Positions 2,281 through 18,856 of a DNA stretch of 40,526 nt are shown here, piece after piece. The notes beneath the pieces were generated by a model. The model was given only the letters and a program-made list of their open reading frames with translations, was not told where the DNA came from and made no database searches. Within the stretch, counting starts at the first letter, position 1; the number at the start of each line of letters is the position of its first letter. The DNA is from an uncultured Pseudomonadota bacterium (GTDB taxonomy: Bacteria > Myxococcota_A > UBA796 > SXON01). Where the stretch lies: the NCBI GenBank assembly GCA_903959175.1, contig CAJBVW010000438.1, positions 1 through 40,526 on the forward strand. The letters run 5' to 3'. Made by a program: the position numbers and the translations under genes.

Positions 2281-2613
2281 TCAGCCCGGCGGCCACGTCA
2301 GGCGGCGGCCGCCGAGGATGTGCAGGTGGAGGTGGAAGACGGTCTGGCCGGCCTCCTCACCGTTGTTGATGACGACGCGGTAGCCGGAGAGCCCCAGCTT
2401 CTTCGCCACGATCCCGACCGCGAGCATGCAGCGGCCGAGCACCTCCACGTCGGCCTCGGTCGCGAGGTCCAGGCGCGGGATGACCTGCCGGGGCACGACC
2501 AGCACGTGGGTCGGCGCCTGCGGGTGGATGTCGCGGAAGGCGATCGTGTGGTCGTCTTCGTAGACGATGTCGGCGGGGATCTGGCGCGCGATGATCTTCT
2601 CGAACAGGGTCAC
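2281..2613 (-). CDS. HIT family protein (HinT-like)
   Basis: A 110-residue histidine-triad protein. The N-terminal TLFEKIIARQIPADIVYEDD and C-terminal VFHLHLHILGGRR, carrying the His-x-His-x-His triad, are diagnostic of HinT-type purine nucleoside phosphoramidases. Length is normal, with no extra domain or signal peptide. The start is GTG at 2613, preceded by GGAG. It is the last gene of the long minus-strand series and meets the HD gene tail-to-tail with 4 bp between stops. A housekeeping role is likely. Its 54-bp separation from the FecR-like gene leaves open whether it belongs to the same transcript. Confidence 0.92.
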   Translation of the reverse strand: MTLFEKIIARQIPADIVYEDDHTIAFRDIHPQAPTHVLVVPRQVIPRLDLATEADVEVLGRCMLAVGIVAKKLGLSGYRVVINNGEEAGQTVFHLHLHILGGRRLTWPPG

Positions 2614-2667: not shown

Positions 2668-3663
2668 TCAGGGGCCGACGCCGACGGGGAGGACGATGCG
2701 CGCGGGAACGGACGGCGCGCCGAGGAAGCCGGTGCGATCGAAGGACGAGATCCGCCACCAGAGGGCGCCCTCGTCGAAGGGCAGGAACAGCGTCTCGGGC
2801 CGCCACGGGCTGGACCCGACGTCCTCGGCGAGGACGATCGTGGTGAAGTCGGGGGTGGACGCGATCTCGACGCGGTAGCCCAGCGCGCGGTCGACGGGGG
2901 CCCACGCGAAGTCCGGGCGGCGGAGCTGGGTCTTCTCGTTCGGGTACCGCGGCGCGCCGGCCGCGAGCAGCGCCACCGGGGCCGCCGGGGCCTCCCCGTC
3001 GCGCACGCGGGTGGCGGTCCCCTCGGTGAGCGAGACCTGCGCGCCCGCGCCCATGACCTCCACCGGACCGTCGAGGGCCTCGGTGCGGGACGCGCCCTCC
3101 TCCACCGTGACGCGGAAGCCGCCCGTGGTGCTCGTGCTCACGCTCGCACCCGTGCGGACGGTCACGGCGCCGGTGCCCTCCGCCGCCGCGAGCACCGCGA
3201 TCGAGCCGCGCCGCACGGACACGACGGAGGCGCGGCGCTCGTCGCGGGCCCAGCTCGCGTCCAGCGTGAGGCAGGTGCCGCCGAGCATGGTGACGTCGTC
3301 GTGCTCGTGGCTGTGCGGCGCGGTGGCGAGGCGGAGGGTGGCGTGGCCGCCGGGATCCGTGCACACCAGCGTGCCGACGGGGAGCGCCCGCGTGGTGCTC
3401 AGGGGTACGGCGGCCTCCCCGGGGAGCGTGGCGGTGCCGGTCCCCGAGACGGAGAGCACGATGGCGGCGGGCTCCGAGCTCTCCGCTCCGGGGAGCAGCA
3501 GGACGGTGCCGACGGGCGGCAGGTCCTTGGCGGCGAGGCGGTTGAGCGCGCGTAGGGCTCCGACGGGCACGCCCTCCGCCTGCGCCACGTCGAGGAGGGT
3601 CTCGCCCTCGTGGAGGACGTGGTGGTCGAGCGCGTGGGCGAGCCCGGCCCAGAGGAGGATCAC
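2668..3663 (-). CDS. LysM and FecR-like domain envelope protein
   Basis: A 331-residue predicted exported protein. A short hydrophobic leader (VILLWAGLAHA) is followed by a LysM-like segment, about residues 13-60 (HHVLHEGETLLDVAQAEGV, then LNRLAAKDLPPVGTVLLLPG). LysM domains bind peptidoglycan. Residues of roughly 85-210 are beta-rich with the FecR-type pattern GGHATLRLATAP, LTLDAS, VSVRRGSIAVLA. The C-terminus (about 250-325) looks like an Ig/fibronectin-type repeat: FAWAPVDRALGYRVEIASTPDF, ALWWRISSFDRTGFLG. The GTG start at 3663 overlaps the stop of the OmpA-like gene (GTGA), so the two are coupled. The leader lacks a clear basic n-region. Role as a wall-anchored sensor or scaffold is inferred. 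Confidence 0.75.
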   Translation of the reverse strand: MILLWAGLAHALDHHVLHEGETLLDVAQAEGVPVGALRALNRLAAKDLPPVGTVLLLPGAESSEPAAIVLSVSGTGTATLPGEAAVPLSTTRALPVGTLVCTDPGGHATLRLATAPHSHEHDDVTMLGGTCLTLDASWARDERRASVVSVRRGSIAVLAAAEGTGAVTVRTGASVSTSTTGGFRVTVEEGASRTEALDGPVEVMGAGAQVSLTEGTATRVRDGEAPAAPVALLAAGAPRYPNEKTQLRRPDFAWAPVDRALGYRVEIASTPDFTTIVLAEDVGSSPWRPETLFLPFDEGALWWRISSFDRTGFLGAPSVPARIVLPVGVGP

Positions 3664-4985
3664 GGGGCCTCCGGGGCGCTGGCCGAGAGGCTCTCGACGC
3701 GGACGTAGCCGTGGGCGCCCTCGAGCGCGTCCTTCGGGGGTTTGGTCGAGGAGAGCACCTTGACGGCGCCGGCCGGGGCGCCCGCGGCCACCAGCGCGGC
3801 GGCGACGGCCTCCGCGCGGGCGCTCGCGACGCGGCGGTTCGCCTCGGCCTCTTCGGACGCGTAGGCACCCACGATGCGGAGCTGGTGGTCCCCGAGGGCG
3901 GCGACGTAGGCGCGCAGCGCCGGCAGCACGTCGGCGGGCACCTCCGCGGAGCCGACCGGGAACGAGAGGGTGAGCGGCGCGGGCACCGGCGCGCGCAGCC
4001 AGAGCGCGTACCCGGCCGCGACCGCACCGTCGATCACGACGCTGCGGCCGCCCCCGACGACCTCGACGGCGACGGGCCCCTCGGGCGCGCTGAAGACGGC
4101 GGTGCCGTCGGGAGCGATCGGGAACACGCTCGCGCCGATGCGCACGCGGTCCCCCGGGAAGGCCACCACGACGACCGAGCCGTACGCGGGGGCCGGGGTG
4201 AGCGAGAGCACACGCCCGCCGGCGGCGTCGAGGGTCACGTCCGCCGGGAGGTAGCCGGGGGCGCGCACCTGGACGGTCACCCCGAGGAGGGAGGCGGGAT
4301 CGCGGTCGCCCAGCGAGCTCGCCGGCACCCACTCGCAGACGGGGTGCGGCAGCCACACCATCGCCTCCGCGGGGGTCACGAGGAGCGGCAGGGGCGGCGG
4401 GGGCGCGGTAGGATCGCGCTCGGTGACGAGCGAGGCGGGCCGCGCGACGCGGGGGCCCGCCCGCCACGCGACGCCGACGCCGGCGATCACAGCGCCGGCC
4501 CCGCCGCCGCCGTACTGCCACGCGAGCGAGGCGCGCAGCCCGCGGTCGGCAGGCGCGGGGCCGTCGTACGCGACGCCGACGCGCGCGAGCGGGCGGGGGG
4601 CGTCCACCCACCAGCCGGTGCCGAGCCCCGCGGTGAGGGACAGCGCGCCCTTCGCGCCGGAGACGATCGGGAGGTGCGCGTCGAGCAGCGCCGTGATGCG
4701 CGGCGTGGGCGCGAGGTCGGCGCCGAGGCCGAGGTCCGCGTTGAGCTGCACCGCGCCGAACGGCAGCCCGGCCGACACGCCAAGCCCGGCCGCGGGCGCG
4801 CCCCCCGCGGCGGAGAGCCCGACGCTGCCGTCCACCCGCGCGACAAGCACGACGGCGGACTCGGGCGCGTGCGCGGCGCCGGCCGCGTGGGCCGGAGCCG
4901 ACGCGCACAGGGTTGCCAGCAAGAACGAGGAGAGGGACGTCACGGCTTCCCGTAGAAGCCTACCCGAAACGGGCCCCGGGATCAC
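3660..4985 (-). CDS. OmpA-like C-terminal domain protein
   Basis: A 441-residue exported protein. With the GTG at 4985 it has a basic n-region and a hydrophobic stretch ending APAHAAGA, a good signal peptide. A second GTG at 4943 would remove both arginines, so the upstream start is preferred. The middle is Ala/Gly/Val-rich and beta-like (about 45-180), followed by a proline run and PEGA-like beta segments. Residues of about 335-410 follow the OmpA peptidoglycan-binding layout (LSFPVGSAEVPADVLPALRAY, then NRRVASARAEAVAAAL), but the hallmark GHTD is replaced by GAYAS, so diaminopimelate binding is uncertain. It lies 15 bp after the kinase gene and overlaps the LysM/FecR-like gene, suggesting a joint envelope role. 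Confidence 0.75.
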   Translation of the reverse strand: MIPGPVSGRLLREAVTSLSSFLLATLCASAPAHAAGAAHAPESAVVLVARVDGSVGLSAAGGAPAAGLGVSAGLPFGAVQLNADLGLGADLAPTPRITALLDAHLPIVSGAKGALSLTAGLGTGWWVDAPRPLARVGVAYDGPAPADRGLRASLAWQYGGGGAGAVIAGVGVAWRAGPRVARPASLVTERDPTAPPPPLPLLVTPAEAMVWLPHPVCEWVPASSLGDRDPASLLGVTVQVRAPGYLPADVTLDAAGGRVLSLTPAPAYGSVVVVAFPGDRVRIGASVFPIAPDGTAVFSAPEGPVAVEVVGGGRSVVIDGAVAAGYALWLRAPVPAPLTLSFPVGSAEVPADVLPALRAYVAALGDHQLRIVGAYASEEAEANRRVASARAEAVAAALVAAGAPAGAVKVLSSTKPPKDALEGAHGYVRVESLSASAPEAP

Positions 4986-5000
4986 GCCGTCCCGGCGGAG

Positions 5001-6596
5001 CTACCGGGCGGGGACCATCCGGAACCGGGCGACCTGCCCGGTCTCCGTGGCGCGGAACGTGCCGTCCAGCGCGGGCTCGTCCGTGAGCCTCGCGACATAG
5101 CGCCCGCTGTCCGCGGTGCGCGTCGTGTCGGCGAGCTCGACGGTGCGCGTGGCGGGGTCGAAGCGCCCCTGCACGTCGGTGACGATGGCGGTGCCCTGGA
5201 AGGTGACCGTGACCGTGCCGTGGAGCGCGTCGTCGGTGCCGGCGAGGTCGAACCGGCTGGTGCGCCCGTTGAAGGAGCCCGTCCACACCCCGACGGGCGA
5301 GGCGGCCTTGGCGACCGGCTCGGCGACGGTCGGGCTGGACGGCTGCGCGTATGAACGGCGCGGCTTCACCTCGGACACGGCCGCGACGACGGCCGGCGCC
5401 TCAACGGCCGGCGCGACGGACGCGGCGACCACCGGAACGGACGGGGCGCTGCCCTCGGGCGTCCTGGCCTCGACGACGACGGCGGAGGGCGTGGGCCCCG
5501 ATGCACGCTCGGTGTTCGCCGGGGGCCCCGGGGGCGCGGATCGGATCCACACGGAGAGCCCCATCGTGCCGAGCAGGAGGAGGAGCAGCCCGGCGGTGAC
5601 GAGCTCGCGGCTGCGCAGGGCCAGCGCGGCTGCGGCGCGCCCGTCCAGCGTCGGCGCGACCTCGCCGCCGCGTCGGGGGCGGGGCACGCGCGGGACGGGC
5701 TCCTGCATGATCTCGGGCTCGGGGCTCAGACCGCTGAGCGAGGCGAGGACGCGATCGCGGACCCACACCCACGCGGCGTCGTCCCGCGCGGAGGGCGGCG
5801 GCTCCGCCGGCAGGAGGGCCATGGCCGCGAGCACGGCGGCGGCCATGTGGCGGGCGCTCGGGTAGCGTTCCGCCGGCGCGAGGCGCGTGGCGCGTTGGAG
5901 GAGCGGGCAGAGCACGTCGGGCACGTCGTCCCACCGCGCGGAGCCCGGCGGCGCGAGGAACAGGTCGACCGGGCTCGCGCCCGTCAGCACGGCGTACACC
6001 GTCGCGCCCGTCGAGTAGATGTCGGCGCCGACGCCCACGCCGCGCGCGTCGAGACGCTGCTCGGGCGGCATGTACGTCATCGAGCCCATCGCCACGCCCA
6101 CGCTGGTGTGGCGCGACTCGCGCCCGTCCGAGAGCAGCGCGATGCCGAAGTCGGCGAGGAGCGCGATGCCGTCGCGGTCGAGGAGCACGTTCTGCGGCTT
6201 CACGTCGCGGTGGATGACGCCGGCGTCGTGCGCGGCGGCGAGCGCGCCGAGGATCTGGAGGGCGTACCGGCACGCGACCACGGGGGGCAGCGGCCCGGTC
6301 TCGTCGACACGGTCCTGGAGGGAGCCCCCCTCAGCGAGGTCCATGACGAAGTAGTCCTGGCCGTCCGCGGTGCCGACGTCGTAGACGCGCAGGATGTTCG
6401 GGTGCGTCACCCGCGCCATCGCCCGCGCCTCGCCACGGAGGCGGGAGCGCTGCGCGTCGATGCCCGCGCCGTCCCCGCGGAGCACCTTCACCGCGCGCTC
6501 GACGCCGAGCGCAGTGTCCGTCGCCCGGTACACGGTCGACGTGCCGCCGGTGCCGAGGACCTCGCCCAGGCGGTATCGGCCCGCGATTTCAGCCAC
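5001..6596 (-). CDS. transmembrane Ser/Thr protein kinase
   Basis: A 531-residue PknB-type kinase. The glycine loop is GTGGTSTVY, the ATP lysine Lys37 (AVKVL), the catalytic loop HRDVKPQN (Asp131), then DFG at 149-151 and an activation-segment end MPPEQ in place of APE. All catalytic residues are present. A Pro-rich linker leads to one membrane helix near 333-352 (LVTAGLLLLLLGTMGLSVWI). An Ala/Pro/Val-rich periplasmic stalk and a C-terminal beta-rich domain (about 430-531, GVWTGSFNGRTSRFDLAG) follow, likely the sensor. It does not look like PASTA or another named sensor. GTG start; 45 bp after the FHA gene, whose product is the natural phospho-reader. Signal and targets are unknown. Confidence 0.9.
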   Translation of the reverse strand: MAEIAGRYRLGEVLGTGGTSTVYRATDTALGVERAVKVLRGDGAGIDAQRSRLRGEARAMARVTHPNILRVYDVGTADGQDYFVMDLAEGGSLQDRVDETGPLPPVVACRYALQILGALAAAHDAGVIHRDVKPQNVLLDRDGIALLADFGIALLSDGRESRHTSVGVAMGSMTYMPPEQRLDARGVGVGADIYSTGATVYAVLTGASPVDLFLAPPGSARWDDVPDVLCPLLQRATRLAPAERYPSARHMAAAVLAAMALLPAEPPPSARDDAAWVWVRDRVLASLSGLSPEPEIMQEPVPRVPRPRRGGEVAPTLDGRAAAALALRSRELVTAGLLLLLLGTMGLSVWIRSAPPGPPANTERASGPTPSAVVVEARTPEGSAPSVPVVAASVAPAVEAPAVVAAVSEVKPRRSYAQPSSPTVAEPVAKAASPVGVWTGSFNGRTSRFDLAGTDDALHGTVTVTFQGTAIVTDVQGRFDPATRTVELADTTRTADSGRYVARLTDEPALDGTFRATETGQVARFRMVPAR

Positions 6597-6641
6597 GGCG
6601 AAGCCCGCGCGGGCGCGCGTCGACGCCGCGCGGAGGCGCGC

Positions 6642-7598
6642 TCAACGGATCGTCACCTCGGTGACGCGGAGACGGACGAACCGCTGCTTCTTCTCGATGA
6701 ACCAGGGATCGAAGCCCGCCACCCGCAGCTCCGCGCGCAGCCGATGCAGCAGCACGTTGAGCTTGTTCTCGTCGCCGTGCCGGCCCCACACGCCGGTCAT
6801 GACCTCGTCGTCGGGGCACCAACCGCGCTCGTCCGGCGGCACGCCGCGCAGGCGATCCTCCTCGAAGCGGCGCCCGAGCAGGAAGAGCAGCACGGCGCGG
6901 TTCCCGCTGTCGATCTTGTGGGAGCGGCCCGAGGCCACGTCGTCCATCGTCGCCTCGGCGCCGAAGGGCCCCTCGAGCGTCGCGCTCAGGCGGTACGGAT
7001 ACCGCTCGGCCTGCGGCACCTCGGTGGCGGCCTGGACCTCCTCCACCTCGGCGAGGCGCAGCACGCGGTCGCCCACGGTGAAGTCGACGCCGATGGTCAG
7101 CGGACCCTCGCTGTCGTCGGTCCCGATCCGCACCTCGCCGTTGGAGTGAAGGATGAGCGTCGCCGCGCGCGCCGGCCCGTCGGGCAGGCGGAGGTCCGCG
7201 TCGGGCCCGGAGCCGATCGCGAAGCGGTCGCCGGTGAGCGGGAAGCGGGTCCCCGCGCGGAGGTCCTCGACCGCGAGGCCGCGGCTCGGGGCCTCGGGCA
7301 CCGCCACGTCCGCGCGCACCTGGAGCACGCACGTCGTGCCGAGGCGGATGCGATCGCCGTCGCGCACGGGGTGCACGCTGCGGATGCGCTTCTCGTTGAT
7401 GAACGTGCCGTTCGTGGACGCGAGGTCCTTGATCCAGACCGTCGTGCCTTCACGCCACACCATCAAGTGATGGCCGGACACCGTCGCGTCCGACACCACG
7501 AGCTCGTTCCCCGGCGCGCGTCCCACATGGATCGCGGCCTCCTCCACGCGGATCGCGTGGACCGTCTCGCCCGACCTCAGGAGCAGCAGCTCAACCAA
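6642..7598 (-). CDS. FHA-domain protein with winged-helix-like C-terminus
   Basis: A 318-residue protein. Residues of about 22-95 form a canonical FHA phosphothreonine-binding domain: GRAPGNELV, VSGHHL, then IKDLASTNGTFIN. Residues of about 110-190 resemble a second, degenerate FHA (FAIGSGPDADLRLPD, TLILHSNGEVRIG, GDRVLRLAEVEE) that lacks the SxxH and NG signatures. The C-terminus (about 225-318) ends LLHRLRAELRVAGFDPW, FIEKKQRFVRLRV, like the recognition helix and wing of OmpR/SARP DNA-binding domains. The start is TTG at 7598, supported by AGGAGG (7605-7610) at 6-nt spacing. Likely a cytoplasmic regulator bound or modulated by the adjacent kinase; DNA binding is inferred from pattern. Confidence 0.8.
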   Translation of the reverse strand: MVELLLLRSGETVHAIRVEEAAIHVGRAPGNELVVSDATVSGHHLMVWREGTTVWIKDLASTNGTFINEKRIRSVHPVRDGDRIRLGTTCVLQVRADVAVPEAPSRGLAVEDLRAGTRFPLTGDRFAIGSGPDADLRLPDGPARAATLILHSNGEVRIGTDDSEGPLTIGVDFTVGDRVLRLAEVEEVQAATEVPQAERYPYRLSATLEGPFGAEATMDDVASGRSHKIDSGNRAVLLFLLGRRFEEDRLRGVPPDERGWCPDDEVMTGVWGRHGDENKLNVLLHRLRAELRVAGFDPWFIEKKQRFVRLRVTEVTIR

Positions 7599-7635
7599 CC
7601 TCGACCTCCTTGGCGATCACCGTAGGCGCGCAGCC

Positions 7636-8826
7636 CTAGGGTAACGCCTCCGGGTGGCGCGATCGGTATCGCGCGAAGGTCATTCGCACGACCTCGTCGC
7701 GATCCTCGTCCAGCAGCGGCTCGATCTCGGCGAAGCGCCGGTCGTCGAGCGTGTACTGGAAGCCGGTGACATAGCGGCGAACGAGGTCGGCCACGACGGG
7801 GTCGACGCTCGCGGCGAGGTCACCCGCGCGCAGGAGCAACACCAGCCCGGGACCCGGCTCGTCCTCCCCCGCGGGCGCCTCGCAGAGGAGCCGCCCGGCG
7901 AGCTGCAGGGCGCGGGCCTCCGCGGCGGCGTCCACCCCCGCGCGCGCGGCACGGGCCACTTCGCCGAGGACTGCCACCGCCGCACCGCTCCGCCCGGACT
8001 CGGCGTATGCGCGCGACAGCTCCTCCAGGCCCTCGGCCTCGCCGGTGAGGTCAGCGGCCTGGCGAGCGAGCCGTACGGCCCGCCGCAACGTCTCCACCCG
8101 CGCGTCCGGCGCGACCAGCGCGGCCTCGCGCCGGAGCACCGCCGCCACACCCGCGAGGTCCCCGGCGGCCTCGAAGCGGCGCCGCGCCTCCGCGAGCCGC
8201 TCCCCCGCGGCCTCGAGCGCACCCCGCCCCGCGAGGGCGTCGGCCTGGACGAGGGCGGTCGCCCCCTCCCCCGCCCCGGACAGCGCCACGGCGGCCTCGG
8301 GCGCGCCGTCCCGCGCCAGCAGCCGCGCCAGCTCCCGCTCGAGCGCGAGCCGCCGGTGCGCGTCGGCGCGCGCAGCCAGGGCCTCGATGACGCCCACAGC
8401 CAGCGCGATCCCGCCCATGTCCTCGCGCGGGAAGAGGTCCCGCGACTGCGTCCGGAAGGCGTCGAGCACCCACGGCGCGAGCCGGGCGCCGTTCCCCCGC
8501 GTGGGCCCGAGGGCGTCGAGGCGGGCGGCGATCGCCACCAGGGCGGGCTCCGCGCGGTCGAGCAGCGCGGCGAACCCGACGCGGTCGGCGAGGACGGCGC
8601 GCTGGGCGTCCACTGGGTCGACGCGCTCGGGCATGTGGAGCACGGCGGTCGCGGCGGCGCGGCGCAGGCCGTTGGCGAGCGCGAGGTCGAGCTGGGCGGC
8701 GTCCCGGAACTTGGTGCGGAGGGCGGCGGTCGCGAGCGCGCCGCAGCCGGGGGTCGCCGCGGCCCCGGGCGCGAGCGCGGCGAGCCAGCCGACCAGGACG
8801 AGGTCGTCCCGGACGGTCGGGGTCAG
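7636..8826 (-). CDS. helical-repeat (TPR-like) protein, probable CTG start
   Basis: About 396 residues, mostly Ala/Leu/Arg-rich amphipathic helices that look like degenerate TPRs (about 170-330: GDLAGVAAVLRREAALV, TLRRAVRLARQAADLTGEAEGL, SGAAVAVLGEVARAAR). The C-terminus VVRMTFARYRSRHPEALP is distinctive but unrecognised. No ATG, GTG or TTG lies in frame between the previous gene and residue about 60. A CTG at 8826 overlaps the TGA of the preceding gene (CTGA), mimicking the ATGA junctions nearby, and is the best start. The next option, a GTG near 8647, would remove a hydrophobic N-terminus (LVLVGWLAALAPGAAATPGCG) that could be an export or lipoprotein signal. Probably a scaffold in the sigma/kinase module. 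Function unknown. Confidence 0.6.
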   Translation of the reverse strand: MTPTVRDDLVLVGWLAALAPGAAATPGCGALATAALRTKFRDAAQLDLALANGLRRAAATAVLHMPERVDPVDAQRAVLADRVGFAALLDRAEPALVAIAARLDALGPTRGNGARLAPWVLDAFRTQSRDLFPREDMGGIALAVGVIEALAARADAHRRLALERELARLLARDGAPEAAVALSGAGEGATALVQADALAGRGALEAAGERLAEARRRFEAAGDLAGVAAVLRREAALVAPDARVETLRRAVRLARQAADLTGEAEGLEELSRAYAESGRSGAAVAVLGEVARAARAGVDAAAEARALQLAGRLLCEAPAGEDEPGPGLVLLLRAGDLAASVDPVVADLVRRYVTGFQYTLDDRRFAEIEPLLDEDRDEVVRMTFARYRSRHPEALP

Positions 8827-9326
8827 TAGTCGGCCCGGACGGGCAGCATCAGGATGCCGTCCTTGAACGTCGGGCCCGCGACGATGAACGTGCCGCCGCG
8901 GTTGATGCTCACGGTGGTGTCGAGGAGCTTGCCGTCGTCGCTGGTGATCTCGACGCGGACGCGGGCCCGGGCGTCGTCCTTCGAGATGAGCGTGACCTTG
9001 AGGCGGCGCCCGCCCTCGATCGGGAAGTTGTGGTCCTCCCCTACGGAGACATCGGCGTCCTGCGTGGAGAGCAGGCGGTAGCCCTTGTACTTGAAGTAGC
9101 GGAACGAGGACGACAGCGCCGAGAGCCGCGGGTCGATGCCGCTCTCCGAGTCGGTCGCGTGCACGACGGAGATGTGGACGCCCACGCGGCTCGCGACCGG
9201 CTTCTGAGTCGCGGCGCCGGCCGCCGCGGGACGCGCGGGCGCCGGGGCGGGCCGGCTCTGCGCGTACGCAGGGCCCGAGAGCGCCATCGCCGCCAGGACC
9301 GTGGCCAGGAGCAGGACGCGAAGCAT
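8823..9326 (-). CDS. secreted protein of unknown function
   Basis: A 167-residue protein with a clear Sec signal peptide: Arg3, a hydrophobic run, and the likely cleavage site PAYA before QS at residue 22-23. A Pro/Ala-rich linker (about 24-45) leads to a single compact beta domain, about 48-167 (VGVHISVVHATDSESGIDPR, FRYFKYKGYRLLS, GRRLKVTLISKDDARARVRV, GGTFIVAGPTFKDGILML). The pattern is of a small periplasmic beta-sandwich, but I do not recognise the family. The ATG at 9326 overlaps the anti-sigma gene's stop (TGATG), so it is co-translated with it and is a candidate periplasmic partner or ligand sensor for that membrane protein. Confidence 0.75.
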   Translation of the reverse strand: MLRVLLLATVLAAMALSGPAYAQSRPAPAPARPAAAGAATQKPVASRVGVHISVVHATDSESGIDPRLSALSSSFRYFKYKGYRLLSTQDADVSVGEDHNFPIEGGRRLKVTLISKDDARARVRVEITSDDGKLLDTTVSINRGGTFIVAGPTFKDGILMLPVRADY

Positions 9327-10480
9327 CAGAGGGGCACTCCGGAGCCCGAGGGGGGGTCGTCCACGAGGATGAACGTCGGGCCGCCGTCCTCGAACTGCAT
9401 GACCTGTACCACCACATCGCCCGGCGCGTAGATCTCTTCCACCTGGGCGTCGTTGATGGTGGCGAGGCGGAGATCCGCGGCCACCGCGGCCACACCGTCC
9501 TCGGGGCGCCGGGTGGGAGCGGTCGGCGCAGTGGGCAGGACCGCGAACAACATCGCGGCCGCGAGCGCGAAGCCGAGGAGCGGGCCGCCGAGCGAGGCCC
9601 AGCGGGGCATGCGCACGGCGACGGGCTCGATCTGCGACATGACGGAGCCGGCCACGTCGATCGGGGGGATGGCCGCGAAGGCTTCCTTCAGGGGCGCGGC
9701 GATGGCGGCCCAGCCGTGGAGGGCGTCCCGCTCGAGGCCCACACCGTCGGCCACGCCGGGCCAGAGATCCTCGCCGCGCTGGGTAGCGTCCCGGAGGGAC
9801 TCGCCGAGGGAGGCGTAGGCGGCCAGGCGATCGCGCGCGCCGACGTCACGGAGCAGCCGCGCGGCGACGACCGCGGTGCGCTCCGAGGAGAGCTCGCCGT
9901 CGAAGTAGGCGGAGAGCTCGGCGTCGGGATCCAGCTCGGCCATCACCGGCGCGACCACGTCGATCGGGGGGGCGGCGCGGACGATGTCCCGCACGGCCTC
10001 GCCGACCGGGGCCCACACGGCCTCGTTCGCGATGGAGGCCATGACGAGGTCCGCGAGGTCGACCGCCGGGGCGCGCACGGCGTCCCGGAGGGCGGCGCCG
10101 AGGGGGGCCCACTCGGTCTCGGGGTCGAGGGGGGCGTCGACGTCGCTCGTGTACACGCCCATCGCCGCGATCTGCGCTGCGATGGCGTCCGCGAGGTCGA
10201 TCGGGGGCGCGTCGGCGCCGCCCAGCACGGACGCGAGCGAGGCGCCCAGGGGGGCCCACACGCGATCCGCGTCGAGCGCGGCCATCACGTCCCCCGCGAT
10301 GTCCACGGGGCCGGGGACGGCGAGGGCGGCTCGGAGCGCGACGCGCAGCTCGGCCCACGCGGCGAGGCGCGGGTCGGCGTCGGCCGCGGCGGCGAGCTCG
10401 CCCCGCTCTCCGGGGGTGGCCTCACCGTCGAAGGCCCGCATCAGCAGGGCTTCGAGGCGATCGGGGGGGGAAGGTTCCAT
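9326..10480 (-). CDS. membrane anti-sigma-like protein with internal repeats
   Basis: A 384-residue protein encoded directly after the ECF sigma gene (41-bp gap). The N-terminus (LLMRAFDGEATPGERGELAAAADADPRLAAW) resembles zinc-free anti-sigma domains. A second copy of that pattern, ELSAYFDGELSSERTAVVAARLL, begins near residue 175. Between and after these lie repeated units of the form WAPLGxxLRDxV followed by PPIDLAxxVMAxI, at least four recognisable copies (about residues 40-173, and again about 250-285). One membrane helix lies near 295-317, followed by about 65 periplasmic residues. There is no CxxC zinc motif. ATG at 10480. Likely holds the sigma factor inactive at the inner membrane; the repeat function is unknown. 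Confidence 0.75.
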   Translation of the reverse strand: MEPSPPDRLEALLMRAFDGEATPGERGELAAAADADPRLAAWAELRVALRAALAVPGPVDIAGDVMAALDADRVWAPLGASLASVLGGADAPPIDLADAIAAQIAAMGVYTSDVDAPLDPETEWAPLGAALRDAVRAPAVDLADLVMASIANEAVWAPVGEAVRDIVRAAPPIDVVAPVMAELDPDAELSAYFDGELSSERTAVVAARLLRDVGARDRLAAYASLGESLRDATQRGEDLWPGVADGVGLERDALHGWAAIAAPLKEAFAAIPPIDVAGSVMSQIEPVAVRMPRWASLGGPLLGFALAAAMLFAVLPTAPTAPTRRPEDGVAAVAADLRLATINDAQVEEIYAPGDVVVQVMQFEDGGPTFILVDDPPSGSGVPL

Positions 10481-10521
10481 CACCGGTGGAACGTCCGGCC
10501 GCGGGGTCCATTCACCGCCAT

Positions 10522-11109
10522 CTACATCTCGCCCGAGGAATGTTGCAGGAGCCCCTGCAGGCGCTTGCGGGCGTAGAAGAGTCGGCTCATGACGGTCCCT
10601 TCCGGGATGTCCATGGCCTCGGCGATCTCCTTGTAGGACATGCCCTCGACCTCGCGCAGGAGGATGACCTCGCGCTGGTCCTCGGAGAGCTCGTCCAGCG
10701 CCGCGAAGATCCGCTCGTGCAGCTGCTTGCGCTGGAGCGCCCGCTGCGGCGACTCGCTCTGGTGGAGGTCGAGGATGGTGCCGTCCTCGTCGCGGTTCGC
10801 GACGGCCTCGTCGAAGGCGGTGGTCTTCCGGCGCCGGTTCTTGCGGCAGTGGTCGATCGCGAGGTTCATCGCGATCCGGTACAGCCACGTGTAGAAGCTG
10901 GACTCGATCCGGAACGACGCGAGGCTCTGGTAGGCCTTGATGAACGCGTTCTGGGTGATGTCCCGCGCCTCCTCGCCGTCCCGGACCATCCCGTACACCA
11001 TCGCGTGGATGCGGGTCTGGTAGCGCTCGACGAGCGGCCGGTAGGCGCTGCCGTCGCCCTTGCGGACGCGCAACACCAGCTCTGAGTCGGGGAGGTCGTG
11101 CGAAAGCAT
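10522..11109 (-). CDS. ECF-type RNA polymerase sigma factor
   Basis: A 195-residue sigma-70 family protein with only regions 2 and 4, the ECF layout. Region 2 has LVERYQTRIHAMVYGMV, DITQNAFIKAYQSLASFR and the -10-contacting FYTWLYRIAMNLAIDHCRK. Region 4 has LDELSEDQREVILLREVEGMSYKEIAEAMDIPEGTVMSRLFYARKRL, the helix-turn-helix for the -35 box. This is the RpoE-like type that directs transcription of envelope or stress regulons. It heads the block running to the FecR-like gene and is followed by its putative anti-sigma factor. ATG start. Autoregulation would be usual, but I cannot identify its target promoter in the upstream 62 bp. Confidence 0.93.
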   Translation of the reverse strand: MLSHDLPDSELVLRVRKGDGSAYRPLVERYQTRIHAMVYGMVRDGEEARDITQNAFIKAYQSLASFRIESSFYTWLYRIAMNLAIDHCRKNRRRKTTAFDEAVANRDEDGTILDLHQSESPQRALQRKQLHERIFAALDELSEDQREVILLREVEGMSYKEIAEAMDIPEGTVMSRLFYARKRLQGLLQHSSGEM

Positions 11110-11171
11110 GGCCGCGTCATCCTATACGATCGCGGGGGTGCACGCCGGGGTCGGCCACCGACGCGCCCCGA

Positions 11172-14100
11172 TCACCGCACGATCACGCGATCGCCCGCCG
11201 CGCGGCCGAAGGTCTCGGGCGCGTACATCTCCTCCGCCTTGGTCGGCGGCACCACGAAGTCGCCGGGGGTCGTGGCGCGCGCGACGTAGGTGTAGGTGTG
11301 CACGCCGTCCGGAAGCAGCGACGCGAAGGCCTCCACGCGCTCGTCGCGGAGGTTCTCGTGCTCGTACCAGGTGCGGCCCCACCACCAGTAGGGGCTCGGG
11401 GTGGCCGTCGGATCCAGGGGGAGCGCGCCGGTGACCGCGAGGTCGGGGTTCAGCACCTCGAGACCGGCGGGGAGCGGGTCCACGAGCGCGACGTGGTAGC
11501 GGCGCATCGGGGTCGCCATCGTGAGGCGCACGCGCACGCGCGCCCCCGCCCGGATCGTCCACACGCCGTCCGCCGCGCGGGTCACGTCCCCCGGTTCGTC
11601 GATCGGCTCGTACACGCGCTCGACCGCGAAGCCGTAGTCGGCGGCCTCGGGCTCGAGGTCCACCGGCGCGTAGCGGAGCCCCGCCCGGTAGTAGAGGCGC
11701 CCGGCGCCCTCCTTCCCGACGACGAGGTCCTGCGCGCCGCGCTCCTGGAGCCACGCCATCGGCACGTCGACCTGCGCGCGCTCCGTCTCGCGCCCCGCGA
11801 ACTTCCGCTCGCCCGCGAGCCCGTCGCCGAGCCACACCCGCGCGACGAACGCGGGGGTCACGCCCTCGTAGACGTGGAAGTAGCGATCGAGCGCGAGCAG
11901 GATCTGCGCGTTCTCCGTCGTGTTCGCCCAGCGCCCCGCCGTGCGGTGCGCGAGCAAGCCGTTCACGAGCTTCGGCACGAGCTCGTTCTTCGGGTCGGTG
12001 CGGAGGAGGGCCTCGAGCAGCACGCCGTCCGCGACGCGATCGGAGTGGAGGAGGACCTGCGCGCCGTCCGAGTAGGAGGTCACGAAGTGGGCGCCCGCGG
12101 CGGTCTCCGTGACGTGGTTGGCGAGCCAGCCGCGGATGCTCTCCACCTCGCGCGTGGCCTTCCCGTCCACCAACGTCGGGAGGATCCACCCGAGGCTCTC
12201 CGCCCCGAGCCCGTCGACGCCGCCCTCGGCGAGGAGCGCCTTCGCCTTCGCGACGTTCGGCGTGCCGGCGAGCGAGAGGACGTTGACCGCGTAGGCCCGG
12301 ATCGCCCAGCGGGACTCGCGCGAGTACCAGCGGGGGATGTGGCGCTCGACCGACCCGACGTAGCCCAGCGCCTTGGCGTAGCTGACCGGCTCGACGGCGT
12401 AGCCCTTGGCCTTGGCGCGCACGAGCGCGTGGGTGACGTGTACGCCGAGGTACGGCCAGCCGTCGTCGCCGCGCCGCCAGAAGGACCAGCCGCCGTCGGG
12501 GTTCTGACGCCGGGCCAGCCGCTCGATGTCGGCCGCGACCGTCGCTTCGAGCTTCTCCTTCGAGGGGAGCTGATCGGAGGCGAAGGCGCCGAGCACGTCG
12601 CGGAGCGCGGCCACGCCGAGGAGGCGGGACGCGAGCTGCTCGTTGCAGTCGTAGGGGTAGGCGACGAGGTAGACGAAGGCGTCGGTGAGCGACTGGAGCT
12701 GGGTGGAGGAGACGGTCACCTCCAGGCCGCCGAACTGCGGCCACACGCCGGCGGGCGGCGCGACGGAGAGCCGCTCCGCGCCGGTGTCAAAGGTGCCGTA
12801 GGTCGCGAACGCCTCGGTGGTCGCGGGCGTCCACACGGGGAGGCTGCCGGTCGCGGCGTCCGCGTACGCACCGGACACTGCGGCGACCTGGAAGCGCGCG
12901 GTGCCGGCCATGGCCGCGGCGGCGGGGAAGCGCACCTCGACCCGATCGTTCGCGGGGACGACGACCCGGCGACCCGCCTGACCGCCCGTCGCCTCCGACC
13001 CGCGGGGGAGCGGATCGGTGACGGCGGAGAGGAGCGAGAGGTTGGCGACGCGCACGGCGAGGTCGACGGTGAGCGGGGCGTCGGTCTGGTTCTGGAGGAC
13101 GACGGGGAGCTCGACGCGGTCGCCGAAGTTGAGGAAGCGCGGCGCCGAGGGGCGCACCATCAGGGGGAGGCGCGCGGTGACGTCCGCCTCGCCCGAGCCG
13201 AACTCCCGTTCGCCCGCGACCGCCACCACCATGATCCGGTAACGGGTGAGGGAGTCGGGGAGCTTCAGGGGCACGCGCGCCGTACCGGCGGTGTCGGTCG
13301 TGACGCTCGGCATCCACAGCGCGACCGCCGAGAAGTCCGTCCGCATCGTGATCTTGGGGGCGGAGGCGTCGGGGACGGTCGGGCCGCTCTTGGCCTCGGC
13401 GTTCACCGAGCGCGTCCGAGCCGGCGCCGCGTCCATCGGCGGCGCGGCCATCGCCTTCATCATCAGCCCGCCTTCGGGAGGCGACCCGCCACCGCCGCGG
13501 CCGGCGCCGCTCATCCCGAGACCGCCCCCTCCGAACGCGTCGCCGATGCTCGCGTCCCCCAGCGGGTCGAGCGCCGCCGGGTTCACGAGGGTCACCCACT
13601 GGCGGAGGTGGTGGGTGCTGACGCCGTCACCGCGCGAGGCGTAGAAGGCGGCGAGCGGATCCGGGAGCTTGTACCCGGTGAGGGCGAGGACGGCCTCGTC
13701 CACGGCGACCACCGCGAGCTCTGCGCCGGCCACGGGGGTGCCATCGGCGCGGGTGACGCGCAGATCGATGGACGTCGCTGCGCCGGGATCGAGGCGCGCG
13801 ACCACGGGGGCCACGGCGACGGTGAGGGTGCGCGCGCGCGGCGGCACCTCGAAGGTGAGCGAGCCCGCGGCGTAGGCCACGCGCTTGGGGGCATCGGCGA
13901 GGGCCGCGCCGTCGTCGCCGGCGCGGGGACGGGCCCCCACGAGGTCGACGGCGACGGTGAAGTCGGGCACATGCCGCGCGGTCACGGGGATCGCGAGCGT
14001 GGTCGAGCCGCCCTCCATCGTGAAGCGGCGCGTCTCGAGGAGGTCGCCGCCCGCGCGTACGGTCAGGACGCCCTCGGCGGGCGAGAACGGAGCCTGGACG

Positions 14101-17100
14101 AGGAGGGTGGCCGTGTCGCCGACGGCGTAGGTCTGGCGCTCGGGGACGAGGGTGACCTCCTCCTGGGCGACACCGCGATCCGGGACGACCTGCGCGCCCG
14201 AGACCCAGACGCGCAGCTCGGTCTCGCTGAGGCGCCCGTGCCGATCGCGCGCCGTGGCGACGATCGCGTAGCTCCCGCCTGCCTCCGCGACGAAGGCGTG
14301 GCGACCGGCGCCCGGGAGCGTCGCCGTCCCGACCTCCTCGGGCACCTCGCTCCAGCCCGCCGCGCCGCGCGTCCACACGAGGCGGCGGAAGGACAGCGTC
14401 ACCGCGGAGCGCCCCTCCCCCGCGGCGACGGCCGCGCCCGCGCGATCCACGACGATCGCCTCGACGTCGACGGGCTTCCCCGCCTCGACGTATGCGGACG
14501 CCGTCTTGAGGCCGACGTACACGTCCGCCGGGTGTACGAGGAAGCTCTTCGACGCGGTCCACGCCTGCCGGTTCACGTCCTGGACGGTCGCCTCGGCGGT
14601 GACGGTCATCGGGCGGGCGGGGCGGAGCGACGCGAAGTGGATGCCGAGGTGGTGGGCGCCGGTGGCGTCGGTGACGCCGGCGAAGCGCTCGGGCTCGACG
14701 TAGCCGCGGTTCGGCTCGCTCCAGGGCCGCCACCAGGGGGACCACGGGCCGAAGCTCCAGTCGCTCCGACCGGGGGGCACGAACGTGGTCGGCGTGGCGC
14801 TCACCGTCCACGCGACGGGCGCGCCGGGGAGGCCGCCGCCGGCGTAGTAGGCAGCGTTCACGTCTACGATGGCGTCCTCGCCGAGGGCGTAGACGCCGTC
14901 GGCGCCGCTCGCGGTGACCTCGAACTCGGGGGTGCGGTACTCCTGGATCTCGAAGGCGAGCTCGGTGCCGTAGCGCGGCGTCGGCCCGTCGAGCGGCTCG
15001 ATGGCGATGCGCGCGGCGCCGAGGTTGGGCGTCTTCGGGAGGGGGAGGTCGAAGGTGAAGCCGCCGAGGCCGCTCACCGTGGCGGTGCCCTCGCCGAGCG
15101 GGTTGCCTTCGCTCGAGAACGCGTGCCAGCCCACGCGGGAGACGCCGGCGCCGCCGAGGTCCCCGTCGATCCCGGGCGCCTTCGACCGGAGCCAGCCGCG
15201 CACGTGAACGGTCTCGCCGGGCTTGTAGAGGTTCTTGTCGTCGAAGACGTACCAGCGCAGGTCCGCGTCGCGCTCGACGCGCACCCACGCGTCCCCGTAG
15301 CCGTAGGGGGACGCCGGGAGGAAGGCCGCGGTCGTGCCTTCGCCCGCGACGACGCCGAGGACGTCGGCGGCGAGGGGGAGGCGCGCGAGGCCGGCGGCGT
15401 CGGTGCGGAGCGGCGCGGAGAGGGCCCCGCCGCGGAGGAGCGCGCGCACGCCGAGGTCGCGGGCCGCGGTGCCGTCGGCGAGGGTGGTCGCCCACACGGT
15501 GAGGGCGGCGGCGTCCTGGAACACCGTGAGGCCGGTGGGCGTCGCCTGCACCCACCCCAGCCACTCCTGCCGGTTCCATCGGTCCTTCGGCTGCACGGTC
15601 GGCTCGACCTGGACGATGAGCTGCCCGCCGCTGCCCTTGAGGTACTTCGTGAGGTCGAGCGCCGTCTCCACCTTGCGATCGGCCACGGTGGCCACCGGGA
15701 TCGTCCCGGCAAACACCCGCTTTCCGGGGAAGGCCTGCTTACGGACGTCCTCCCAGCGGTAGGCCTGGAGCCACTTCTCCCATGCGGGCCAGTCCGTCGG
15801 CGCCACCTCGTGGATCGTCACCTTCAACGCGGATTGATTGGTCGTGAAGAAGGAGACCTTCGGCGGCCCGACGGGGTCGACGGTGACGAAGGTGGCGTCC
15901 GGGCCGCGGAGCATCTGCTCGGCGGGGCCGACGGCGACGGTGAAGGTGCGGGCCTCGGCGAGGGTCTGGCCGAAAATGTCCCGGATGCCCGCCGCGACCT
16001 TGACGGTGTAGGTCGTGCGGCCGGTGAAGAGGCCGTGGATGCGCACGCTGTCGCCGTCGGCGAGGCGCTGGAGGCCGGGGACCTCGGGCGTGACGCTGAT
16101 GCTGGCGGGGTCGAAGGCGGCCGCGTCGAGGGGGTTGGAGAACGCGATGTTCCAAGGGCTGTCCGGCGGGCAGGGCTTCTGGCCCCAGCATTCCGGCGCG
16201 CTCACGGTCAGCGGCCCGTAGGTGCGGAAGGCGAGGGCCTGCTCTGCCGTCGTGAGGAGCGGGCCCTCGGCGGAGGGAGCGCCCACGGGGACCACGAGGG
16301 CGTACGCCGTGCCCTTGGCGAGGGGGGCGGTCGGCGTGACCGCGAGCGCGCGGCCGGGCTCGGACTGGGCCACGCGGGCGGCCACCTCCGGCACCTTCGC
16401 GACCTCGTCCGCGGTCGCGAGGCGGACGCCCACCTCGGGGCCGCCGCGCAGCTTCAGAACCTTCACCAGCGCGTCGGGGCTGATCCCCTGGTCGAAGCCG
16501 AGGAAGAGCACGGGCGTGAGCGACTGGGGCGCGAGGTCGCGCGGGCGTCGGCTCGTCGCGTCGGGCCACGAGGACTGGAGCGTGAGCGGCGGGGTCGCGA
16601 AGGACCACGTCACCGCCTGATCGATCGTGCTCCCATCGGGCGCGCGCGTGCCGGCGGGGATGTCCGCGGTGAAGCGGGTCGCCATCGGGAAGCGCGGCTT
16701 CGGCTCGAACACGAGGGTCTTCGTGCCCAGCCAGCGCCACGCGCCCGGCGGCGCCGGCGTGATCGTGACCGGCACGCTCTTCGCGGCCTCGGCCTGGGAC
16801 GCGAGCGCCACCATCGGCCGCGAGAAGCTGACCGAGAGGTGCGGCGCCATCGGCACGTCGCCCTCGGGCGCGCGGCGGACGACGCTGAGCGGGCCGGACG
16901 CGACCTCGGGGGCGGTCGTCCCCTCGCCCGCCGGGAACGCCATCGGCACGGTGGCGCCGGTGCGCGGCGGGGGCTGGGGCCCGTCGCGGAGCGCGAAGGC
17001 CACGGCGGCGACGCCATCGGTCTCCAGCGCGGGCAGCCGGGCGAGGAGGGCGGTCGTGGCGGCGGGATCGAGCGCAGTGGACGCGACGAGCGGCACGGCA

Positions 17101-17291
17101 TCGAGCCCCTCGGCGAGCGGGCGGGCGTCGTAGAGGCGCATGCCGAGGCCGTCTTCCGCGGGATCCGCCTCGAACATCACGCTCACCTCCGGACGGGTCG
17201 TCGCGGCGGCGTCGGCGGGCACCTCGGGGGGCGGCTTCCGACAGGAGACCACCAACCCGACCGTCAGCATCCAACGTGTCCACCGCCGCAT
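11172..17291 (-). CDS. alpha-2-macroglobulin family lipoprotein with thioester motif
   Basis: A 2039-residue protein. The N-terminus is a lipoprotein signal: MRRW, hydrophobic core, lipobox VVSC with Cys17. ATG 17291 is chosen over a GTG at 17306 because AAGGGG lies upstream at suitable spacing. Macroglobulin-type beta domains fill the first 1200 residues. A Gly/Pro/Met-rich, probably exposed bait-like segment spans about 1254-1317. Then FSAVALWMPSVTTDTAGTARV marks the A2M core domain. The thioester motif CNEQ (Cys1549) precedes a helical terpenoid-toroid-like domain including NPDGGWSFWRRGDDGWPYLG. Bacterial A2Ms trap proteases covalently in the periplasm. E. coli-type relatives pair with pbpC; none is in this window. 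The family usually reaches 1500-1900 residues. Confidence 0.92.
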   Translation of the reverse strand: MRRWTRWMLTVGLVVSCRKPPPEVPADAAATTRPEVSVMFEADPAEDGLGMRLYDARPLAEGLDAVPLVASTALDPAATTALLARLPALETDGVAAVAFALRDGPQPPPRTGATVPMAFPAGEGTTAPEVASGPLSVVRRAPEGDVPMAPHLSVSFSRPMVALASQAEAAKSVPVTITPAPPGAWRWLGTKTLVFEPKPRFPMATRFTADIPAGTRAPDGSTIDQAVTWSFATPPLTLQSSWPDATSRRPRDLAPQSLTPVLFLGFDQGISPDALVKVLKLRGGPEVGVRLATADEVAKVPEVAARVAQSEPGRALAVTPTAPLAKGTAYALVVPVGAPSAEGPLLTTAEQALAFRTYGPLTVSAPECWGQKPCPPDSPWNIAFSNPLDAAAFDPASISVTPEVPGLQRLADGDSVRIHGLFTGRTTYTVKVAAGIRDIFGQTLAEARTFTVAVGPAEQMLRGPDATFVTVDPVGPPKVSFFTTNQSALKVTIHEVAPTDWPAWEKWLQAYRWEDVRKQAFPGKRVFAGTIPVATVADRKVETALDLTKYLKGSGGQLIVQVEPTVQPKDRWNRQEWLGWVQATPTGLTVFQDAAALTVWATTLADGTAARDLGVRALLRGGALSAPLRTDAAGLARLPLAADVLGVVAGEGTTAAFLPASPYGYGDAWVRVERDADLRWYVFDDKNLYKPGETVHVRGWLRSKAPGIDGDLGGAGVSRVGWHAFSSEGNPLGEGTATVSGLGGFTFDLPLPKTPNLGAARIAIEPLDGPTPRYGTELAFEIQEYRTPEFEVTASGADGVYALGEDAIVDVNAAYYAGGGLPGAPVAWTVSATPTTFVPPGRSDWSFGPWSPWWRPWSEPNRGYVEPERFAGVTDATGAHHLGIHFASLRPARPMTVTAEATVQDVNRQAWTASKSFLVHPADVYVGLKTASAYVEAGKPVDVEAIVVDRAGAAVAAGEGRSAVTLSFRRLVWTRGAAGWSEVPEEVGTATLPGAGRHAFVAEAGGSYAIVATARDRHGRLSETELRVWVSGAQVVPDRGVAQEEVTLVPERQTYAVGDTATLLVQAPFSPAEGVLTVRAGGDLLETRRFTMEGGSTTLAIPVTARHVPDFTVAVDLVGARPRAGDDGAALADAPKRVAYAAGSLTFEVPPRARTLTVAVAPVVARLDPGAATSIDLRVTRADGTPVAGAELAVVAVDEAVLALTGYKLPDPLAAFYASRGDGVSTHHLRQWVTLVNPAALDPLGDASIGDAFGGGGLGMSGAGRGGGGSPPEGGLMMKAMAAPPMDAAPARTRSVNAEAKSGPTVPDASAPKITMRTDFSAVALWMPSVTTDTAGTARVPLKLPDSLTRYRIMVVAVAGEREFGSGEADVTARLPLMVRPSAPRFLNFGDRVELPVVLQNQTDAPLTVDLAVRVANLSLLSAVTDPLPRGSEATGGQAGRRVVVPANDRVEVRFPAAAAMAGTARFQVAAVSGAYADAATGSLPVWTPATTEAFATYGTFDTGAERLSVAPPAGVWPQFGGLEVTVSSTQLQSLTDAFVYLVAYPYDCNEQLASRLLGVAALRDVLGAFASDQLPSKEKLEATVAADIERLARRQNPDGGWSFWRRGDDGWPYLGVHVTHALVRAKAKGYAVEPVSYAKALGYVGSVERHIPRWYSRESRWAIRAYAVNVLSLAGTPNVAKAKALLAEGGVDGLGAESLGWILPTLVDGKATREVESIRGWLANHVTETAAGAHFVTSYSDGAQVLLHSDRVADGVLLEALLRTDPKNELVPKLVNGLLAHRTAGRWANTTENAQILLALDRYFHVYEGVTPAFVARVWLGDGLAGERKFAGRETERAQVDVPMAWLQERGAQDLVVGKEGAGRLYYRAGLRYAPVDLEPEAADYGFAVERVYEPIDEPGDVTRAADGVWTIRAGARVRVRLTMATPMRRYHVALVDPLPAGLEVLNPDLAVTGALPLDPTATPSPYWWWGRTWYEHENLRDERVEAFASLLPDGVHTYTYVARATTPGDFVVPPTKAEEMYAPETFGRAAGDRVIVR

Positions 17292-17356
17292 CGAGACCCC
17301 TTGCACGCCCGAAGAACGCCGGCGCGCGCCCGAGCTTACTCCGGGGCCTCGGCGGA

Positions 17357-17384
17357 GGTCAGTGTGCGGCGGTCAGTGTGCGGC
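17357..17384 (-). repeat. 14-bp perfect tandem duplication over the polA stop codon
   Basis: On the minus strand GCCGCACACTGACC occurs twice back to back (17371-17384 and 17357-17370). The first copy encodes the last residues and TGA of polA; the second lies just after the stop. It looks like a recent replication-slippage duplication with no coding effect. Confidence 0.85.
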
Positions 17385-18851
17385 GTCCCAGGTCGACGCC
17401 CAACCGGCGTCCACCTTCAGCGGCACGCACAACGTCGCGACGCCCTCCATCGCGGCGCGGACCCGCTCCGCGACCTCCTTCACGTCGCCCTCGGGGACCT
17501 CGAGCACGAGCTCGTCGTGCACCTGCAGCAGCAGGCGCGCCGAGGTGCCCGCGACATCGGCGTGGACGCGCACCATGGCGAGCTTGATGAGGTCCGCCGC
17601 GGTGCCCTGGATGGGCGTGTTGATCGCGATGCGCTCGGCGCCGGCGCGGTCCATCGGGTTCTTGGCGTCCAGGCCCTGGTTCGGGCGGCGGCGGCCGTAG
17701 AGCGTCTCCGCGTAGCCCTTCTCCCGGGCGCGGGCGATCGCGCCGTCCATGTAGGCGCGCACCTGCGGATAGCGGGCGAAGTACCCGTCGATGTAGGACT
17801 GGGCCTCCGTGCGGGAGATGCGGAGGTCGTTCGCGAGGCGGAAGGCGCCCATGCCGTACACGATGCCGAAGTTGATCGCCTTCGCGGCGCGCCGCATGTC
17901 GGGGGTCACGAGCCCGGGCATCACCCCGAAGATCTCCGACGCGGTGCGCCGGTGGATGTCCTCGTCGTTGCGGAAGCTCTCGCAGAGCGGGCCGTCGCCG
18001 CAGTAGTGCGCCAGGATCCGCAGCTCGATCTGGGAGTAGTCGCAGGACAGGAACACGTGCCCCGGCGCCGCCACGAAGCAGCGGCGGATGCGCCGCCCCT
18101 CCTCCGTGCGGACGGGGATGTTCTGGAGGTTGGGGTCGTTCGACGAGAGCCTTCCCGTGGCCGCCACCGCCTGCCGGAAGTGCGTGTGGATCCGCCCGGT
18201 CTTCGGGTTCACGGCCGGGGGCAGCGCGTCCACGTAGGTGCCCTTGAGCTTCGAGAGCTCGCGCCAGGCGAGGATGGCGCCGGGGAGCGCGTGCTCCTCA
18301 CGGAGCTTGTCGAGCGTGTCGGCGTCGGTGCTCCAGCCGGTCTTCGTGCGCTTGCCGCCCTTCAAGCCGAGCTTCTCGAAGAGCACCTCCGCGAGCTGCT
18401 GGGTCGAGGCGACGTTGAACTCCTGCCCGGCGAGGGCGTGGCAGCGCTTCTCCTCCTCGGCGAGGCGGGCGCCGAGCTCAGTGGAGAGCGCCTGGAGCGC
18501 GGACACGTCCACCGCGATGCCGGCGCGCTCCATGTCGGCGAGCACGGGCACGAGCGGGAGCTCGATGTCGCGGTACACCCCGGTGACGCCGTTCTCCTCT
18601 AGCTTCTCGGCGAGCAGGGAGTCCAGGGCCCAGGTGAGCTGGGCCTCCTCGCCGAGGGCGGTCCCGAGCGGGTGATCGAGGTAGCGCTTCCCGAGGTCGT
18701 CCAGGCCGTGCTTCTGCTCGGGCACGAGCAGGTAGTCGGCGAGCATCACGTCCCCCGCGATGCCGGCGAGGTGCACGCCGGCGCTCTCGAGGAGCTTCGC
18801 CGCTTCCTTCAGGTCGTAGCCGGTCTTCTCCACCGTGGCGTCCTCGAGGAG
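17373..18851 (-). CDS. polA: polA 3' part: family A polymerase domain
   Basis: This frame resumes homology exactly after the C run (LLEDATVEKTGYDLKEAAKLL). It holds the complete polymerase domain: thumb, TGRLSSNDPNLQNIPV, motif A DYSQIELRILAH with the metal Asp, the O-helix motif B RRAAKAINFGIVYG, and motif C LLQVHDELVLE with the second catalytic Asp. No convincing start codon with a Shine-Dalgarno is visible at the junction. The frame is open upstream to 19058 but without homology there. If the frameshift is real, a Klenow-like fragment could be made only by internal initiation or frameshifting. Confidence 0.85.
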   Translation of the reverse strand, partial: LLEDATVEKTGYDLKEAAKLLESAGVHLAGIAGDVMLADYLLVPEQKHGLDDLGKRYLDHPLGTALGEEAQLTWALDSLLAEKLEENGVTGVYRDIELPLVPVLADMERAGIAVDVSALQALSTELGARLAEEEKRCHALAGQEFNVASTQQLAEVLFEKLGLKGGKRTKTGWSTDADTLDKLREEHALPGAILAWRELSKLKGTYVDALPPAVNPKTGRIHTHFRQAVAATGRLSSNDPNLQNIPVRTEEGRRIRRCFVAAPGHVFLSCDYSQIELRILAHYCGDGPLCESFRNDEDIHRRTASEIFGVMPGLVTPDMRRAAKAINFGIVYGMGAFRLANDLRISRTEAQSYIDGYFARYPQVRAYMDGAIARAREKGYAETLYGRRRPNQGLDAKNPMDRAGAERIAINTPIQGTAADLIKLAMVRVHADVAGTSARLLLQVHDELVLEVPEGDVKEVAERVRAAMEGVATLCVPLKVDAGWASTWDAAH

Positions 18852-18856
18852 GGGGG
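18851..18856 (-). other. frameshift site in polA (C6 homopolymer)
   Basis: Minus strand reads CTG CGC CCC CCT CCT CGA in the upstream frame. Deleting one C gives CTG CGC CCC CTC CTC GAG, i.e. LRPLLE, which restores continuous Pol I homology. The position is therefore fixed to this run within one or two codons. CCC-C is also a sequence at which +1 slippage of proline tRNA is known, but there is no stop codon nearby to promote it. Confidence 0.85.

Follow-up and report, generated by a model that had tools for sequence, protein, structure and literature searches.

Among described systems, the regulator EmbR of Mycobacterium tuberculosis (domain order wHTH-BTA-FHA) and its kinase PknH are the closest published precedent for one half of the locus described here, a set of kinase, FHA, and envelope genes termed module B (PMC4601284). 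Ser/Thr kinases are also known to act on sigma factor circuits. The ECF43 sigma factors, which are without the DAED-type acidic motif in region 2.2, depend on phosphorylation by a kinase, and kinase-phosphorylated anti-sigma factors have been published as well (PMC8999054); ECF and Ser/Thr-kinase signalling are thus not the normally separate types that the original prediction for this locus took them to be. The other half of the locus, module A, invites comparison with the RpoE-RseA-RseB system of gammaproteobacteria.

The locus and its context

The window, meaning the whole 40,526-nucleotide stretch of DNA that was analysed, is contig 438 of a 7.2-Mb draft genome in 611 contigs, the close relatives of which are uncultured MAGs. 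All eight minus-strand open reading frames predicted at 2668-11109 were found (Table 1). Their order is identical in both congeneric genomes (L142 and L143), so the eight are taken to be real genes. The gene families and the envelope-facing character originally assigned to them were right, and the individual domain calls fared unevenly. Pfam matches in the window proteins themselves support the ECF sigma factor (E about 1e-20 for both regions), RseA_N (above its cut-off), FHA (4e-19), Ser/Thr kinase, and LysM calls, whereas wHTH, OmpA, and FecR are supported through relatives only. The TPR-like call is weak: the window protein has no Pfam TPR match, and the matches in a few relatives are marginal (best 0.0021).

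The gene overlaps proposed at 9326 (TGATG) and 3660-3663 are present and are kept in the genus, but at 8823-8826 the genes overlap only if the TPR-like gene starts at CTG. No other codon fits the expected start, the window having lost the ATG and spacer of both congeneric species. Because both of those species have an ATG after a spacer, this overlap is not a conserved coupling.

Table 1. Features of the locus, with coordinates in the window
Feature	Coordinates	Strand	Evidence or remark
ECF sigma factor, RpoE-like, 195 aa; module A	10522..11109	-	Pfam Sigma70_r2/r4_2; TIGR02939, 174 bits; identity within genus 93-94%
Membrane anti-sigma factor, 384 aa; module A	9326..10480	-	RseA_N 1.3e-9; repeats; independent domain profile
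Secreted protein, 167 aa, secretin-like beta domain; module A	8823..9326	-	AlphaFold model; structural matches; 190/379 genomes
TPR-like alpha-helical protein; module A, mainly in the window's family	7636..8826	-	In 13/58 relatives; start (CTG) uncertain
FHA protein with C-terminal OmpR/PhoB-type wHTH; module B	6642..7598	-	Conserved linker Thr192
Transmembrane Ser/Thr kinase; module B	5001..6596	-	Pkinase 2.5e-40; conserved periplasmic C-terminal domain
OmpA-like secreted protein; module B	3660..4943	-	OmpA match in 18/18 family members
LysM and FecR-like secreted protein; module B	2668..3663	-	LysM in 13/20, FecR in 9/20 members
HIT gene, usual downstream end of module A	2281..2613	-	Separation from TPR-like gene by module B confined to the window's genus
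Bacterial alpha-2-macroglobulin gene, context, in neither module	11172..17306	-	Between polA and sigma gene

It is peculiar to the window's genus that the alpha-2-macroglobulin gene separates polA from the sigma gene, the two being direct neighbours in several other genera. In the window, a frameshift near 18860 divides polA (17373-19959, minus strand) between two reading frames. The gene is a single frame in the compared relative L147, and the frameshift may be an assembly error in the MAG or a real lesion.

Two separately conserved modules

Module A comprises the ECF sigma factor, the membrane anti-sigma factor, the secreted protein, and the TPR-like protein; module B comprises the FHA-wHTH protein, the Ser/Thr kinase, the OmpA-like protein, and the LysM/FecR protein. 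Linkage between them was assessed by searching five of the proteins in 58 genomes drawn from the genus, the family, and the order and mapping 58 neighbourhoods. The sigma and secreted genes stand together at all 20 loci of the order, with an anti-sigma gene recognised at 19. In much of the window's family, the TPR-like gene and HIT follow these three genes, and polA often lies upstream. Module B, or a core of kinase, OmpA, and LysM genes, is placed elsewhere in other genera and in varying gene order; its FHA gene may be upstream or first, downstream or last, divergent, or absent. The window's genus (three of three species) is alone in having module B between the TPR-like gene and HIT. The limits first proposed for the block fail on the downstream side, where module A runs on into HIT, now parted from it by module B. 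Both modules occur in 17 genomes outside the genus and lie on different contigs in every one, a separation that leaves room for rare linkage because all but a few of these genomes are drafts.

At five loci from relatives in the window's family, the TPR-like and HIT genes overlap by 4 bp, and the site without module B is therefore the older by parsimony. Gene order kept within the genus carries little weight because the flanking polA, HIT, and HD genes are likewise syntenic there. Neither the LysM/FecR protein tree nor the kinase-domain tree points to an origin for the genus's module B.

The block is best explained, with a probability of roughly three in four, as a composite: two envelope-signalling operons, each conserved independently of the other, that were brought together in the ancestor of the genus. 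The original prediction instead joined all eight genes into one pathway, and named homologues scattered in related genomes without a conserved order as a finding that would speak against it. This is what the neighbourhoods show: each set, sigma/anti-sigma/secreted on the one hand and kinase/FHA/OmpA/LysM on the other, is conserved, and outside one genus the two are unlinked. The eight genes are probably not one pathway but two envelope sensors lying side by side, which would work in parallel. What emerges is two testable systems in place of a one-genus curiosity.

A shared transcript without cross-talk is a serious possibility that falls somewhat short of even odds. Module B would then have been captured into the sigma operon and be expressed from the same promoter, possibly as part of the sigma regulon, while acting on different targets. 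Same-strand spacing is tight throughout, and module B interrupts a formerly overlapping TPR-HIT pair. However, the spacers between the TPR-like, FHA, kinase, and OmpA-like genes (36-110 nt, poorly conserved) could hold promoters, and no conserved ECF promoter, in the form of a classical GAAC-type autoregulation site, was found upstream of the sigma gene.

The sigma factor and a repeat-bearing anti-sigma factor

Region 2.2 of the window sigma factor reads DGEEARDITQ, and its acidic residues are conserved in relatives. Because the acidic motif (DGEEARD) is kept, the sigma factor is not of the phosphorylation-dependent type. A TATAGG-like element (around 11121-11126, minus strand) precedes the sigma ATG by about 12 nt, and similar elements occur in several genera; it may mark a near-leaderless, separate promoter for the sigma gene.

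The anti-sigma factor of the window has one anti-sigma domain at about residues 10-54 and a second at about 186-233. It also carries partial helix repeats, a single membrane helix (about 297-315), and a periplasmic tail. A domain profile built from phylum-wide relatives, with the window sequences left out, recovers both domains: at a nominal search size of 1000 sequences the i-E values are 2.5e-5 for the first and 4.8e-9 for the second. The first domain reaches 26.0 bits, where the highest of 2000 shuffles gave 12.0. In relatives the number of such domains ranges from one to three. In the window protein, shorter units of the form LRxALRxxPxxDVADxVMAxI separate the two domains and also follow the second; these units look like the end part of an RseA-type domain, a likeness to be taken as a lead only. 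The number of units varies even inside the genus. One membrane helix and a periplasmic tail are kept in all versions. The tail spans about 50-107 residues, and aligned members share a pattern like VxQFEDGGPTFILVDE. At one locus (L152:7972-8682), the anti-sigma protein carries near-identical tandem copies of LQSAVGGGVDVADDVMLSLA, and almost no complete anti-sigma domain can be recognised in it; the repeat expansion here is extreme.

Sequence searches with the first domain and with the whole anti-sigma factor found no relative among solved structures, and the predicted structure is of low confidence (pLDDT 56) and too poor for use. The NCBIfam entry NF052375 was considered as a name for the family and rejected, the matches falling far below its cut-off. 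RseP-like (M50) and HtrA-like (trypsin-like) proteases are encoded in the window genome.

With tandem domains, the stoichiometry of sigma control becomes a direct question. One answer, speculative and rather unlikely as a whole, is a multivalent brake: two or three anti-sigma domains would hold more than one sigma factor, or a single one with graded affinity, and lineages would tune the threshold by gaining and losing units, with the secretin-like protein taking RseB's place as a new periplasmic partner across Myxococcota. The literature searched, which includes few of the subscription journals, contained no description of tandem anti-sigma domains or of the sigma/anti-sigma/secreted triad.

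A secretin-like secreted protein

The profile of the secreted protein has a match in 190 of 379 Myxococcota genomes, and a genome with a match nearly always has a single copy. At 19 of 19 distant loci the gene follows just after an ECF sigma gene, with an anti-sigma gene recognised between the two by profile at 15. The triad of sigma factor, anti-sigma factor, and secretin-like protein is conserved across much of Myxococcota. With its secreted member in about half of the sampled genomes, the triad would be a natural candidate for an RpoE-type envelope stress response in the phylum.

The name of the protein follows from its predicted fold. The mature part of the AlphaFold model has a pLDDT of about 97. 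Foldseek alone returned no good match to the model and ranked no secretin convincingly; on re-ranking with VIA-align, the top 22 entries are all secretins (Z 9.5-7.2, rmsd 3.5-4.3, 95-103 residues), and the next entry, at 7.0, is unrelated. The Pfam Secretin family (PF00263) matches none of 18 members at E values up to 10. Alignment by hhalign to secretins of the same genomes is weak (probability 21%) but falls on a corresponding motif (P 0.001). Because structural likeness is paired with a weak sequence match, the protein is called secretin-like and not a secretin; in its modelled form it resembles a stripped-down secretin domain. No match to RseB was found, and the predicted fold differs from that of RseB. 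The C-terminal tyrosine was considered as an OMP-tail-like ligand for DegS/PDZ and set aside, since conservation of the residue does not extend beyond the order.

Instead of sensing the anti-sigma factor, the protein may belong to the sigma regulon as an envelope repair or secretion factor that travels with its regulator, a minority prospect of real standing: gene position is the sole tie between the secreted protein and the anti-sigma factor, and secretins, which the fold resembles, are envelope machinery. Against this, in all 19 distant neighbourhoods the gene keeps strictly to the place directly after the anti-sigma gene, as RseB does, which favours the reading of the protein as an anti-sigma sensor.

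The phylum-wide triad and the multi-domain anti-sigma factor are the most interesting pieces of the locus, with functions that are inferred throughout.

The kinase and FHA-wHTH module

The phosphothreonine-binding residues of the FHA domain (G26 R27, S41, H44, N63 G64) are invariant. The wHTH is recognised as Trans_reg_C in 16 of 17 relatives and gives a profile match to the wHTH of SaeR/PhoB; the domain order is FHA-wHTH, and a BTA domain gave no match in the protein. Of 17 regulators, 15 have a threonine in the linker immediately ahead of the wHTH, whereas linker shuffles reach 9 at most. This conserved threonine suggests an EmbR-like switch from kinase to regulator.

The catalytic residues of the kinase are invariant in 17 sequences (K37, E56, HRD 129-131, DFG 149-151, PE 178-179). 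One membrane helix is predicted, and the alignment shows conservation of the C-terminal domain beyond it, for which no match was found among solved structures. In 12 of 17 proteins the linker of the kinase contains PT[LIMV], where shuffling gives 3.3 on average and 9 at most; this pattern was chosen after inspection of the alignment.

The envelope partners are recognised less directly. In the window proteins the OmpA domain is below the Pfam cut-off, LysM is just above its cut-off, and FecR is below; all three are matched among family members (Table 1). Full-length relatives of the LysM/FecR protein occur only within the order. In distant Myxococcota families, single-contig genomes included, a LysM/FecR-like gene comes just after a gene for a Ser/Thr kinase, with no OmpA or FHA gene between (L220-L223).

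Module B is plausible as a self-contained relay, compact in its kinase-to-FHA-wHTH path and equipped with envelope partners and a predicted phosphosite.

Proposed mechanism

Module A would operate as an RseA-type switch. The membrane anti-sigma factor would hold the ECF sigma factor through its two cytoplasmic domains and partial repeats, while the secreted secretin-like protein would watch the short periplasmic tail. Once freed or cleaved, the tail would expose the anti-sigma factor to degradation, and the sigma factor would be released. In module B, the layer of peptidoglycan and outer membrane would be sensed by the kinase's periplasmic domain, with assistance from the OmpA-like protein and the LysM/FecR protein. 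The kinase might then phosphorylate both itself and the linker threonine of the FHA-wHTH regulator, and binding of phosphothreonine by the FHA domain would change the regulator's DNA binding.

Least probable is an integrated pathway in this genus, in which the kinase phosphorylates the anti-sigma or sigma factor, or the FHA protein tunes the sigma factor, and the joining of the operons was selected: the gene order kept in all three species could reflect new wiring, and kinase control of anti-sigma factors (PknB) and of ECF43 sigma factors is published (PMC8999054), but the modules are unlinked outside the genus, unrelated flanking genes are equally syntenic within it, the sigma factor keeps its acidic region-2.2 motif, and module B itself contains a candidate substrate for the kinase and a DNA-binding output. 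Cross-talk between the modules in the genus is possible, because kinase action on anti-sigma factors has precedents (PMC8999054), but unsupported. The original suggestions for the kinase thus part ways: its action on the FHA protein gains support and its tuning of the sigma factor gains none.

Comparison with known systems

Module A shares with RpoE-RseA-RseB an RpoE-like sigma factor, a single-pass anti-sigma factor with RseA_N, and a secreted protein encoded directly after it. Proteases of the RseP and HtrA types are likewise encoded in the genome, and activation may be by regulated intramembrane proteolysis. It differs in its third gene, which encodes a small secretin-like beta domain and not an RseB-like protein, in having two or three anti-sigma domains in some lineages, and in its short periplasmic tail. 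Compared with secretins (GspD, PilQ, InvG, pIV), the secreted protein may share the core beta fold, as its model predicts, and has a weak match to the motif T-x-V ... G-T-x-x-x-x-G-G/P. Unlike them, it has only about 120 mature residues, is without N domains, and is found with a sigma/anti-sigma pair rather than with secretion genes.

Module B resembles EmbR-PknH in combining FHA and an OmpR-type DNA-binding domain in one protein whose gene adjoins that of a transmembrane Ser/Thr kinase; here the FHA domain comes first, BTA is absent, and the partners are OmpA-like and LysM/FecR proteins. As in the ECF43 pairs EcfP-PknT and EcfK-PknS, kinase and ECF sigma genes lie close together in the window. 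In contrast to ECF43, the window sigma factor has its own anti-sigma factor, keeps acidic residues in region 2.2, and is linked to a kinase in one genus only.
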